Shown: piece by piece, positions 50,903-55,676 of the stretch
How positions within the stretch are numbered: position 1 is the stretch's first letter
How the letters are laid out: each line of letters starts with the position of its first letter
Assembly: GCF_963675975.1 (NCBI RefSeq)
Contig: NZ_OY780939.1
Span: 2,294,001-2,358,000 of the forward strand
DNA from: Halarcobacter sp.
Lineage (GTDB): Bacteria; Campylobacterota; Campylobacteria; Campylobacterales; Arcobacteraceae
DNA length: 64,000 nt
Direction: 5' to 3'
The notes under the pieces: model-generated
Told to the model about the DNA's origin: nothing
Database searches by the model: none
What the model saw: the letters and a program-made list of their open reading frames with translations, nothing else
Made by a program: the position numbers and the translations under genes

Positions 50903-51391
50903 ATGAATAAATATTATTTACTTTTACCTGTTTTTTTATTAATAATATTATCAGGTTGTAGTGAAAAAACATCCCTTGAATATTTTACAGAAAATCCAGA
51001 AAATGCATTATCTGTACAATATACAAAAAAAAGAGATATTCTCCACAAAAACGAAGTAAAAGCAATGATATTTGCTACATACTTAAATAAAATATCTGCA
51101 AAATATAAAAGTGAAAAACTAAATAGTTTTATTATTGGAATTCATTATGCAGATGTTGATAATAATGATTTAATAGAAAATCGTTTTTTACTTACATTAA
51201 ACGAAAAGAGACCATTAAGTTTAGTTAAACTAAAAAAAGATTCTGAATTTTTAGAATATATATCTTTAAAAAATAGATGGGCATCTTATTATCTAGTACA
51301 TTTTAAAAATATTGAAGATAAAACAAAAAAATTAAATTTAAAATTAACCCATCCAGTGTGGGGAAGTACAACTATAAAGTTTCTAAAATAG
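50903..51391 (+). CDS. Lipoprotein of unknown function (162 aa)
   Basis: Signal peptide (MNKYYLLLPVFLLIILSGC) with a clean lipobox LSGC; Cys19 would be acylated. The mature domain (~140 residues) is mixed alpha/beta with segments such as ALSVQYTKKRDILHKNEVKAMIFATYL and SFIIGIHYADVDNNDL, suggesting a small periplasmic fold. GGAG lies 8 bases before the ATG. Its end overlaps the convergent slt gene by 20 bases. I recall a lipoprotein at the same place, between mobB and slt, in Campylobacter. No function assigned. Confidence 0.8.
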   Translation: MNKYYLLLPVFLLIILSGCSEKTSLEYFTENPENALSVQYTKKRDILHKNEVKAMIFATYLNKISAKYKSEKLNSFIIGIHYADVDNNDLIENRFLLTLNEKRPLSLVKLKKDSEFLEYISLKNRWASYYLVHFKNIEDKTKKLNLKLTHPVWGSTTIKFLK

Positions 51392-52826
51392 TATTTATAG
51401 TTACTTTCTTTTTTTCTTCTGATAGTTTATTATAATATAGCACATACCAAAGAATAAAACTCTCTTTATTTTTTATATCCAATAGTTCAAAATTTAGATA
51501 AGAACTCAAAGGATGATTTAAATTGTAAGATTTAATTTTAGCTACTTGATCATTCATATTATTATAAGTAAGGAAACTTTTGAATATTTTATCCTTATCA
51601 AAATTTAAACTATCTAGATATATATTCATATAATCAATATTTTTTTCTAGTGTAAAAAAACTATTAATATCATAAGATAAACTGTTTTGTATAGTAATCT
51701 TTTTAATTAAATCTGGATTTAATTGAAATATTCCAACATCATATTGCTTTGAAATTTTATCTTCATCAAAGTTTGATTCAACTTTTGCAAAGGTATAAAG
51801 TAGGGCTATTCTTTCAAGTGAATATTTACTTTTAAGCTTATCAAATTGATCAATTTTTATAATATCTAAAGTTGAAAAATCTATTTCATTTTTAAGTAAT
51901 TCATTTGAATAATATGAATAAAAATTAAAATCCTTACTTATTGATAAATTTTTTAATATATTTTTATCTTTTGTAATTAGATATATCCAAAAATCTATTT
52001 TATCAATAAAAAATTTAATTTCTGTTTTAGCTCTAGCCTTTAAAAGATATTCATAAGCCTTATTATAATCTTTTAAAACAATTGAGTTAAATGCAAAATA
52101 AAACAATGACTCATTATCTAACCTATCAATATCTTCTAAATCATTAAATGTTGTTTGTAAAAAATTTAAATTTGGATTTGTTAATGAAATTTTTATTAAC
52201 TCTTTAAATTTAGTATTCTTATCTATTTTTTTCAATGTTCTTTTTGGTATTTTATAATTAAAATAATTTTCTCTAAATTTAGTATCAACACCTAAAAATA
52301 TATCATAAAAAAGGTTTTCATTTTGTACAATCAACTTAGTAAAAGGGATTGGAGAAGCTAACACTTTAATTTTTTTTGTAAATAGTGGATATTTATCTTC
52401 TACTTTTTTAATAACTGTATTAAGCTCTAAAGAGTTAAGTTTTGATGCTTTTTCTAGTGTTAAACCATTTACTATACAATCAGAATAACTATCTACAAGT
52501 AACTTGTAATCCATTTTCATACATTGGGCAACAGCCCTTGTCTCATCATGATTAAATTTATCAGAAAAATTAAAAAATAATTTATTATTCATATTATCAA
52601 TTAAACTCAATACCCCAAAAGCTTCATTACTAGAAATATCAGTTTTTAAATACTCATTAATATAAAAATCTCTTTTTAAACCTTTTTTCATATTAGATAT
52701 ATAATTAAAACTTAATTCGTTAGTTGGAAGCTCATTAATAGCTGTTTCTTGTAAAGATGAAGGTTGAGTAACATCATTAGCACATAAAAAATGTGCTAAA
52801 AATAATGATAATAGAGTTTTTTTCAT
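51372..52826 (-). CDS. Soluble lytic murein transglycosylase-like protein
   Basis: 484 residues with an N-terminal signal peptide (KKTLLSLFLAHFLCA, cleavage near residue 17). Residues ~30–320 are helical and resemble the superhelical ring of Slt70. The C-terminal SLT domain has the catalytic glutamate in FAKVESNFD and the segment VGIFQLNP in place of the usual GLMQ motif. It cleaves peptidoglycan to 1,6-anhydro products during growth. The downstream end overlaps the lipoprotein gene at 50903. It follows yggT on the same strand. Confidence 0.85.
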   Translation of the reverse strand: MKKTLLSLFLAHFLCANDVTQPSSLQETAINELPTNELSFNYISNMKKGLKRDFYINEYLKTDISSNEAFGVLSLIDNMNNKLFFNFSDKFNHDETRAVAQCMKMDYKLLVDSYSDCIVNGLTLEKASKLNSLELNTVIKKVEDKYPLFTKKIKVLASPIPFTKLIVQNENLFYDIFLGVDTKFRENYFNYKIPKRTLKKIDKNTKFKELIKISLTNPNLNFLQTTFNDLEDIDRLDNESLFYFAFNSIVLKDYNKAYEYLLKARAKTEIKFFIDKIDFWIYLITKDKNILKNLSISKDFNFYSYYSNELLKNEIDFSTLDIIKIDQFDKLKSKYSLERIALLYTFAKVESNFDEDKISKQYDVGIFQLNPDLIKKITIQNSLSYDINSFFTLEKNIDYMNIYLDSLNFDKDKIFKSFLTYNNMNDQVAKIKSYNLNHPLSSYLNFELLDIKNKESFILWYVLYYNKLSEEKKKVTINTILETL

Positions 52827-52838
52827 TTTTTAAACTAA

Positions 52839-53117
52839 TTACATTCCCATAAAAAGTCTTCCTAAAAATGTTTCTAGGAAAATTAATGCAAAAATAACTA
52901 TTAAAGGTGCTAAATCCATTCCTCCAACAACTGTAGGAATAAATCTTCTCACAAAAGCATATGCTGGTTCTGTTAATCTATATAACATTTGAACAATTGG
53001 ATTATAAGGATCTGGTCTAACCCAAGATAATAAAGCTGAAATAATAATCACCCACTTGTAAAGTGAGATTACAGCTAAAATAACTGTAAAAACCGAACCT
53101 AAAAATGCATCTATCAT
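52839..53117 (-). CDS. YggT family membrane protein
   Basis: 92 residues, two transmembrane segments and the YggT signature (SALLSWVRPDPYNPIVQMLYRLTEP…RRFIP). YggT proteins are linked to osmotic response, cell division or cytochrome placement in different organisms; the role is not settled. The ATG overlaps the stop of the GltX-like gene by four bases. Confidence 0.9.
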   Translation of the reverse strand: MIDAFLGSVFTVILAVISLYKWVIIISALLSWVRPDPYNPIVQMLYRLTEPAYAFVRRFIPTVVGGMDLAPLIVIFALIFLETFLGRLFMGM

Positions 53118-54379
53118 TTTACGATTTCTCCTAAATAATTTTTTATTAATGGATAAATATCAGAAATATCTGGTCCATTTTCTCTTCCTGTTAAAATATA
53201 TATTAATGGATTAATATATTCATCTTTTGATAAATTAGTTTCTTGAGATATATAAGCTTCAAAAGAATCTAAAGTATCAAAATAAGGGGCTTTTTTAATA
53301 CAAGCTTTTAATTTATCAAACTTCTCTTGATTTTTGTCATATGTAGTTTTAGATGAAAATATTTTTTCGATATTTGTTTTAATCTCATTTATTGTACTTA
53401 CTTCTGATAAAAAAAGTTTAGCAAGTTTACCAATATCTGTATCTGCAAAACCTAATATTTTTGAAAGTCTCATCTCATCTATAAGTTCAAGATGTTTTTT
53501 ATTTAAAAGCTTTAATTCTTCTAAATCAAAAGTAACACTTTGTGTTGGAAAAGTATTTATACCAAACCACTCTAAAGCCTCTTCTAACTCAAATACCTCT
53601 TTTGAAGGCTTAGTTCCAAGAGATAAAAGATAATTTGCTATTGCACTTGGTAAAAAACCATCTGCAATCAAATCTTTTACTAAAACATCATTTTCAATTT
53701 TTGGTAGATGTATATATTTAATCTCTTTATCATAATTTAAAGATTCTCTTAAATATATTTGTCTTGGTGTATCAGGGACAAATTTTTCATCTCTTATAAT
53801 TGTAGAGATATCATAAAGCATATCATCAATGGCACAAGCATAATTATATGTAGGCATTTTGTCATGTGTTAAAATTCTAAAATAATCTACTTCAAAAGGT
53901 TTAAATTTGATTTCACCCTTTAATTCATCATTAAAACTTATACTCTCTTCTGGTTTTTTAATTCTAACGGTAAAAGCAGCATTACAATTTAATACTGTTT
54001 CGTCAGATAAAGTTTCACAAAACCCATCATAACTGTATATTTTACCTTTCTCTTTTGCTTTTTGTTTTAATTCTTCTATTTTTTCATCTGAACAAAAACA
54101 TGCAAAAGCTTTTTTTTGAGACATTAATTGCATTGCAAGTTTCTGATAATATTTCAAATTTTCACTTTGATAAATTATACTTGCATATTCAATTGAAAAA
54201 AGATTGATTAAATCAATAAGCTCTTTATCTTTCCCTTCAATACTATTTTCTTTATCAATATCTTCAATTCTAAGAATCAGCTCTTCACCAGTTTTTTTTG
54301 ATAACATATAGTTGTATAAAGCAATTCTTAGGTTAGAAACACTTAAATCTTTTGTTGTACTTACAGCAAATCTTAACAA
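53114..54379 (-). CDS. GltX-like protein lacking the class I synthetase signatures
   Basis: 421 residues, collinear with bacterial glutamyl-tRNA synthetase. The N-terminus has LRFAVSTTKDLSVSNLRIALYNY where GltX has RFAPSPTG–HIGN–R-AL; the HIG triad reads SVS (13–15). Later GltX landmarks are kept: ILRIEDIDKENS, YDGFCETLS, PTYNYACAIDDM and FLPSAIANYLLSLG. The RGEDH-type motif reads RDEKF (196–200), and the whole KMSKR loop is missing between LPKIEN and LIADGF (~226–238). The ORF is intact (TTG start, AAGGA 6 bases upstream) and coupled to yggT, so it is probably expressed. Adenylate formation looks impossible or altered; a functional GltX would be needed elsewhere. A tRNA-binding or regulatory role is possible. 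Confidence 0.75.
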   Translation of the reverse strand: MLRFAVSTTKDLSVSNLRIALYNYMLSKKTGEELILRIEDIDKENSIEGKDKELIDLINLFSIEYASIIYQSENLKYYQKLAMQLMSQKKAFACFCSDEKIEELKQKAKEKGKIYSYDGFCETLSDETVLNCNAAFTVRIKKPEESISFNDELKGEIKFKPFEVDYFRILTHDKMPTYNYACAIDDMLYDISTIIRDEKFVPDTPRQIYLRESLNYDKEIKYIHLPKIENDVLVKDLIADGFLPSAIANYLLSLGTKPSKEVFELEEALEWFGINTFPTQSVTFDLEELKLLNKKHLELIDEMRLSKILGFADTDIGKLAKLFLSEVSTINEIKTNIEKIFSSKTTYDKNQEKFDKLKACIKKAPYFDTLDSFEAYISQETNLSKDEYINPLIYILTGRENGPDISDIYPLIKNYLGEIVK

Positions 54380-54380
54380 T

Positions 54381-55676
54381 CTATTTCCTTACTATCGAGA
54401 ATGATAATTTATTTATCTCTTTATGCGATTTAATATATGTATTTAAATCTTCTAATTTAAGTTTTTCAATCTTTTCCAACTCTTTTTTATTATGGTTTTG
54501 ATCTAAGCCTTTATAAAAAAGTGTAAAAGCTCTATTTAGTCTTTGAGAAAGAGTTTCTGTTCTTAAAGGTTCACTACCTAATAAAAACTTTTTAGCAGAA
54601 TCTAACTCTTCTTGCGTTACACCATTTTTAACAAACTCTTCAACTAAAGATTGAACTAAATTTTTTGCTTCATCTGCACTTTCAAGTTTTGTTTGTAAGT
54701 ATCCAGTAAAATAAGAATAAGATTTATTAATAGAAACATAACCATAAGCAGAATAAGCTAATCCTCTTTTTACTCTAATCTCTTCCATTAGTCTAGACCC
54801 AAAACCACTTCCACCTAATATAAAAGATGCAACTTTTGCCATATAAGTATCTTTATCTTTTACATTAACCTCAAAAGGGCTACCAAAATAGATATATGCT
54901 TGTTGAGTGTCTTTTAGAATCTCTTTTGTAAGAGGTTTTGCTGAAGTTTTAATCTCAATATCTTTATTTTTATTTTCAGCATTTAAAACTTTAATACTTT
55001 TTTTGATTTTTGCAATAATCTCTTCATATTCAAAATCACCACCAACTACAATTATTAGATTATTTAAATCTAAATTGCTTTTTAGTTGCTTTTTAACATC
55101 TTCAAGTTTTATTTTTGAAATAGTCTCAATAGTACCAGAAGAAGGGTTTTCTAAAGGTGTGTTTTTAAATATAATTTTATTTAAATTGTTAGATGCAACA
55201 TAATCAAAATCATTTTCTTTTCTTTTTAATGAACCTGTTTGAATAGTTTTAATCTTTTCTAAAACATCATTACTATAATTTGGATCTTTTAATAAATCAC
55301 TTAATAGATTTAAACCTTTTTCGTGTACATCTTTTAAAGAAGATAACTCAATAACAAATGTCTCAAAACCATTACTCGTATGTAAAGAGATTGCAGAATT
55401 TTCCAATTTTTCTGCAAATTTAATACTTCCTAATTTTTTTGTACCTTCATTAAGTAGTTTTGCACTAATTGAAGTAAGTCCACTATGTTTTTTATCTTGC
55501 ATATACCCTGAGTTTGTAAAAACTAATTGTAAATTTAATATTGGTAATGATTTTTCTTGTTCAAAAACAACAGGAACATCAATACCTTTTATATTTATAT
55601 GCTTTATTATAGCACCCATCATAATTCCTTGTAAAAATAAAAGTATTAGTATTAGTTTAGAGATTCTATTTTTCAT
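54381..55676 (-). CDS. M16 family peptidase-like protein (non-catalytic subunit type)
   Basis: 431 residues with an N-terminal signal/anchor helix (about 5–22). It has the M16 two-lobe pattern: a first lobe with SGLTSISAKLLNEGTKKLG, and a second with GGSGFGSRLMEEIRVKRGLAYSAYG, matching the R/Y substrate motif of M16 proteins. The zinc-binding HxxEH motif expected in the first lobe is absent, so this is likely the non-catalytic partner of a paired protease, as known for PqqE/YmxG pairs in Helicobacter. It lies between mqnC (7-base gap) and the GltX-like gene. Confidence 0.82.
   Translation of the reverse strand: MKNRISKLILILLFLQGIMMGAIIKHINIKGIDVPVVFEQEKSLPILNLQLVFTNSGYMQDKKHSGLTSISAKLLNEGTKKLGSIKFAEKLENSAISLHTSNGFETFVIELSSLKDVHEKGLNLLSDLLKDPNYSNDVLEKIKTIQTGSLKRKENDFDYVASNNLNKIIFKNTPLENPSSGTIETISKIKLEDVKKQLKSNLDLNNLIIVVGGDFEYEEIIAKIKKSIKVLNAENKNKDIEIKTSAKPLTKEILKDTQQAYIYFGSPFEVNVKDKDTYMAKVASFILGGSGFGSRLMEEIRVKRGLAYSAYGYVSINKSYSYFTGYLQTKLESADEAKNLVQSLVEEFVKNGVTQEELDSAKKFLLGSEPLRTETLSQRLNRAFTLFYKGLDQNHNKKELEKIEKLKLEDLNTYIKSHKEINKLSFSIVRK

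Follow-up and report, generated by a model that had tools for sequence, protein, structure and literature searches.

The window analysed here (64,000 nucleotides of a Halarcobacter sp. genome, contig NZ_OY780939.1, positions 2,294,001 to 2,358,000) carries on its reverse strand, at 53114..54379, a gene that is the orthologue of gltX2. This gene encodes the GluRS2 of the Campylobacterota, a tRNA-Gln-specific, misacylating glutamyl-tRNA synthetase. In our view, the protein of the window is a non-catalytic descendant of GluRS2, maintained by selection and released by the glutaminyl-tRNA synthetase GlnRS, a reading to which we assign a probability of about 0.78. Descent from GluRS2 is supported by the locus, by the yggT, slt and M16 context and by the gene tree.

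The gene has 421 codons and a TTG start, preceded by a likely ribosome-binding site, AAGGAA (54385..54390), read from the sequence; this and all other features described for the window lie on the reverse strand. Compared with intact orthologues, PSPTG/HIGN is replaced by STTK/SVSN, with residues 5-16 (54332..54367) reading AVSTTKDLSVSN where the intact proteins have APSPTGDMHIGN; RGEDH is replaced by RDEKF (residues 196-200, 53780..53794), and the KMSKR loop is absent, the deletion junction falling at about N230/D231 (53687..53692). The class I motif test, which asks for HIGH and KMSKS, is consequently not met, SVS standing in the place of HIG. A sequencing error as the cause of the motif loss can be excluded, because the sister genome G015, with 86% identity, has the same lesions, and because dozens of genomes that were assembled separately show such a loss too. 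Among the retained features are two probable zinc-ligand pairs, Cys94-Phe-Cys96 (54092..54100), assigned by alignment, and Tyr117...Cys121 (54017..54031), invariant in our alignment A1; the DDM motif of D185, D186 and M187 (53819..53827; D194/D195 in T. thermophilus), kept despite the loss of the active site; and the helical segment MRLSKILGFADTDIGKLAKLFLSEVSTINEIKTNI (residues 303-337, 53369..53473), which is among the best-conserved stretches of the copies that have lost their motifs (hereafter dead copies).

The AlphaFold2 model of the protein has a mean pLDDT of 93.9 and a confident GluRS fold, with a query-normalised TM of 0.85 against the T. thermophilus GluRS structure 1j09. The class I Glu/Gln catalytic domain is the sole Pfam match, and the score on TIGR00464 (gltX_bact, NCBIfam) is 302.3 bits, above the cut-off of 289.95, so that an automatic pipeline would name the protein glutamate--tRNA ligase, the label that annotation pipelines give to the dead GluRS2 proteins. 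An identity as GluQ-RS (YadB) was rejected, since the protein reaches 131 bits on the YadB model, for which the cut-off is 276.7, and has a full-length C-terminal domain. No RNA element was found in the region at the gathering threshold.

The upstream neighbour is an M16-type protease gene (54381..55676), conserved in the family, and downstream lie yggT (52839..53117) and a conserved slt-like lytic transglycosylase gene (51372..52826). The gltX2 stop and the yggT start codon share 4 nt (ATGA), which makes translational coupling possible. By estimate, such an overlap is present at 59 orthologous loci with a dead gltX2 and at 36 with an intact one, which is most loci, and the YggT protein is 100% identical between the window genome (G000) and G015. 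The comparison with intact orthologues thus confirms the losses of HIG, PSPTG, RGEDH and the KMSKR loop that had been read from the letters in a first-pass annotation of this DNA, and the open frame, a likely ribosome site and possible coupling to a neighbour, which it also described, were likewise found.

The genome, a single contig of 3.27 Mb, has three genes with the Glu/Gln synthetase domain, namely the window gene, a canonical gltX1 (C1:846284), in which HIGG and KLSKR are present, and a GlnRS-YqeY fusion gene, glnS-YqeY (C1:2838359, 752 aa), in which PHIGH and MSKRK are intact. A second, canonical gltX, for which the first-pass annotation advised looking, therefore exists, which rules out that the window gene represents the loss of a sole gltX. 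The same annotation had placed a gltX at this position in Campylobacter; the ancestor of the window gene is gltX2, encoding the tRNA-Gln-specific GluRS2, and not the housekeeping gltX1. The gatB gene is also found in the window genome, and across the phylum it was detected in 79 of the 80 genomes searched, none of which yielded asnS; GatCAB is therefore presumably kept for making Asn-tRNA. We could not tie the retention of gltX2 to GatCAB or to asnS, as gatB is present and asnS absent also where gltX2 is missing. Five genomes of a single genus of family f2 (G118, G120, G150, G218 and G222) have gatB and no match for glnS or gltX2, so that these organisms may rely on gltX1 for the charging of both tRNAs, or may use another route.

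All 104 genomes of the family match the window protein, nearly all of them at gltX2 and not at gltX1 alone, with open frames and, in nearly all genomes, a single gltX2 orthologue; across the phylum, gltX2 proteins are about 40-50% identical to the window protein. We scored 174 orthologues of the phylum for the three catalytic motifs and searched the same genomes for glnS. Of the 89 genomes without glnS, 88 have all three motifs, the sole exception (G076) being a 74%-complete assembly, and of the 85 genomes with glnS, 80 have lost at least two of the three (78 are without any motif, two have HIGH only). The motif loss is thus not private to the window genome, a point that the first-pass annotation had left to a comparison of Arcobacteraceae orthologues, and follows glnS across the phylum. 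To give examples, gltX2 is dead in Poseidonibacter lekithochrous A1R12 and Arcobacter sp. CECT 8985 and intact in Arcobacter vandammei R-73987. Five glnS-bearing genomes have an active-looking gltX2 with all three motifs; glnS is broken or partial in two of them (15 stops in G060, a fragment in G066), the assemblies of two others are fragmented and 3-7% contaminated, and G271 is a clean exception, whose glnS may be a recent acquisition. In G060 the glnS match with its 15 in-frame stops (G060:C171:7988-9214) coexists with an intact gltX2, and this glnS has possibly decayed, that is, the replacement may have run in the reverse direction.

The association between glnS and motif loss has a Fisher p of 3e-42, a value that takes no account of relatedness. 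An rpoB tree of 78 genomes gave 17 independent pairs differing in glnS, of which 15-16 were concordant and none opposite (p ~3e-5), and on a gltX2 tree built without the catalytic columns 12-13 of 16 pairs were concordant and none discordant. If inactivation is irreversible, the rpoB tree implies 19-27 such events and the gltX2 tree 15-23, the low ends being obtained by pooling weak branches; both trees are quick searches and include long-branch rows. Separate events are also favoured by the loop between two fixed points, whose length varies widely in dead copies, at 18-30 residues, but is 29-30 in intact copies. The counts could be lower if some lineages regained an intact copy through gene transfer, but the gltX2 tree places the intact Aliarcobacter copies among dead relatives.

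In about 17 genomes glnS lies within a few kb of a dead gltX2, in at least three arrangements and more often than random placement predicts. It stands directly upstream of gltX2 on the same strand at loci L277, L279, L280 and L283, is divergent from it at L278, L282 and L284, and follows yggT at L281. This proximity suggests repeated insertion at the locus, or transfer together with the locus. The adjacency also hints at a link to glutaminylation, although the insertion site alone may explain it.

The catalytic residues, each essentially 100% conserved in intact copies, are retained in only part of the dead ones: the glycine of PSPTG in 25%, the histidine and glycine of HIGH in 19% and 31%, and the lysine and arginine of KMSKR in 9% and 0%. 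Every intact copy has the RGEDH glycine, which is missing from all 69 dead copies of the main set; this glycine and the KMSKR arginine were lost in each dead copy examined. Erosion also affects the positions equivalent to T. thermophilus Thr43, Asp44 and Arg47, which we take to lie near the tRNA 3' end, and to Arg435, presumably involved in anticodon recognition; the T. thermophilus sequence was aligned for residue numbering only. The zinc pattern CxC...Y...C is kept in 95% of dead copies (for the Cys94-Phe-Cys96 pair, 95% of the dead copies aligned compared with 100% of the intact ones), D185 and D186 in 99% each, and much of the helical body is preserved, including SKILGFADxDIGKLAK. The residues apparently gained by dead copies were rejected as new-function residues, as they mostly reflect the genera sampled.

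The gltX2 genes of G000 and G015 carry the same lesions, and their differences therefore most likely post-date inactivation. For this pair dN/dS is 0.174 (bootstrap 0.119-0.249) and low in every segment; between the same two genomes gltX1 has a value of 0.051, the M16 gene one of 0.099 and slt one of 0.266. A simple Nei-Gojobori count gives about 0.1-0.4 for other dead pairs and about 0.03-0.18 for intact ones, so that the constraint is weaker than on a live enzyme, yet clear. The weaker constraint, and the loss or truncation of the gene in some lineages, would also be expected if GluRS2 were useless beside GlnRS and its genes were slowly on their way to loss, with frames that are open merely because they are young. 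We nevertheless consider such a decay improbable, as it predicts a dN/dS near 1, which the lesion-sharing pair does not approach even at its upper bound, and as about 80 dead copies, many of them mutually only 50-60% identical, are almost all full length and free of stops, with about 85 near-invariant positions over the 55 dead copies of the family. The window gene likewise fails the test for a pseudogene (stops, frameshifts, dN/dS near 1), and the dN/dS measurement that the first-pass annotation proposed, far below 1, bears out its opinion that a decaying pseudogene is unlikely.

The overlap with yggT, kept at most dead loci, and the identity of YggT between G000 and G015 would fit an open reading frame that is read through only for ribosomes to reach the yggT start, the protein itself being inert. 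Coupling, however, preserves the frame and not the amino acids, and should leave dN/dS near 1, whereas it is low along the whole protein, in which the zinc pattern and D185/D186 are moreover retained; we give this possibility very little credence. Equally hard to sustain is an enzyme with an altered mechanism, an option left by the first-pass annotation, which would use a different chemistry, or a different substrate, in activating or transferring an amino acid. It could draw on Arg3, the glutamate-binding equivalent, and Glu39, found in 96% and 74% of dead copies, but no replacement catalytic residues have become fixed, the HIGH, RGEDH and KMSKR positions have drifted to many different residues in different dead lineages, and the length of the KMSKR loop varies widely. 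The pseudo-synthetase that the same annotation also envisaged is the reading that gains support, with the ATP/adenylate site gone, the frame and fold kept and dN/dS far below 1.

For such a selected, non-catalytic descendant of GluRS2 we propose the following course. The lineage carries a GlnRS-YqeY, as the co-occurrence shows, the horizontal origin being taken from the literature; Gln-tRNA-Gln can then form directly, and GlnRS would, by inference, relieve GluRS2 of its reaction. The adenylation site of GluRS2 is lost, repeatedly, where GlnRS is present, a step shown by the distribution of the motifs, and purifying selection, as seen in dN/dS, still maintains the protein, in which the fold, the zinc pattern and the helical body are preserved. 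Since the dead protein is still preserved by selection, it probably has another role. We infer that it may be kept for a non-catalytic job already done by the active GluRS2, because separate lineages would otherwise not all keep the protein, and a hidden non-catalytic function of GluRS2 is thus predicted. The likeliest jobs, which are a guess in the absence of binding, expression or knockout data, are the binding of tRNA-Gln or a partnership with GlnRS or GatCAB. That the specific job is as a tRNA-Gln/GlnRS partner is a tentative guess, and the erosion of the Arg435 equivalent weakens a tRNA-Gln-binding role. Similarly tentative is the wider proposal in which direct glutaminylation has in dead GluRS2 a dedicated non-catalytic partner that holds tRNA-Gln or GlnRS, or keeps GatCAB away; this would be a bacterial counterpart of SLIMP with at least 15 separate origins, and, if true, active GluRS2 enzymes share the same second function. 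The recurrent losses amount to a replicated natural experiment, in which a replaced enzyme is stripped of catalysis yet kept.

A survey from 2014 (PMC3927822) remarked on epsilonproteobacteria in which GlnRS and GluRS2 occur together, a combination that it found remarkable, and considered their GlnRS possibly non-functional; it also lists two Mesorhizobium with both enzymes, and infers horizontal transfer of the epsilonproteobacterial GlnRS-YqeY, which groups next to that of Deinococcus-Thermus. Our results indicate, as far as sequence comparison can tell, the opposite of that guess, namely that GluRS2 and not GlnRS is the inactive member of the pair, and the puzzle of their joint presence in some epsilonproteobacteria is thereby resolved. 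The window protein resembles the H. pylori-type GluRS2 (PMC3927822) in orthology, in its neighbours in relatives, in fold and in zinc pattern; in contrast to it, it lacks the catalytic motifs, occurs alongside GlnRS and cannot plausibly charge tRNA-Gln. The closest functional analogy, without common descent, is SLIMP, a SerRS paralogue of animal mitochondria with an ablated active site and a proven subunit of a heterodimeric SerRS (PMC10570016), in which an ablated synthetase fold is likewise kept while an active synthetase catalyses; the window protein too has an ablated site in a selected fold, but no partner has been shown for it, and its ablation is recurrent and tracks another enzyme. GluQ-RS is also GluRS-derived with a changed role, but is active and without an anticodon domain, whereas the window protein has its full length and looks inactive. 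The second GluRS of T. maritima is reported to lack aminoacylation activity with both tRNAs (as cited in PMC3927822), but its group has HIGH, arose by duplication and has no link to GlnRS. In the literature searched, which was limited to open-licence papers, we found no description of a motif-less GluRS2 in Campylobacterota, and such a GluRS2 goes unmentioned in a review of duplicated synthetases.

A strict necessity of the dead protein is contradicted by four glnS-bearing genomes in which gltX2 was unmatched (G147, G196, G205 and G290) and by a few copies that are truncated, as in G161, or lack the zinc subdomain. The latter are two dead copies of about 380 aa (L274 and L275, in G273 and G291), in which the helix segment GFADSDIGKLAKLYLEKVST is kept and may mark a retained functional surface.
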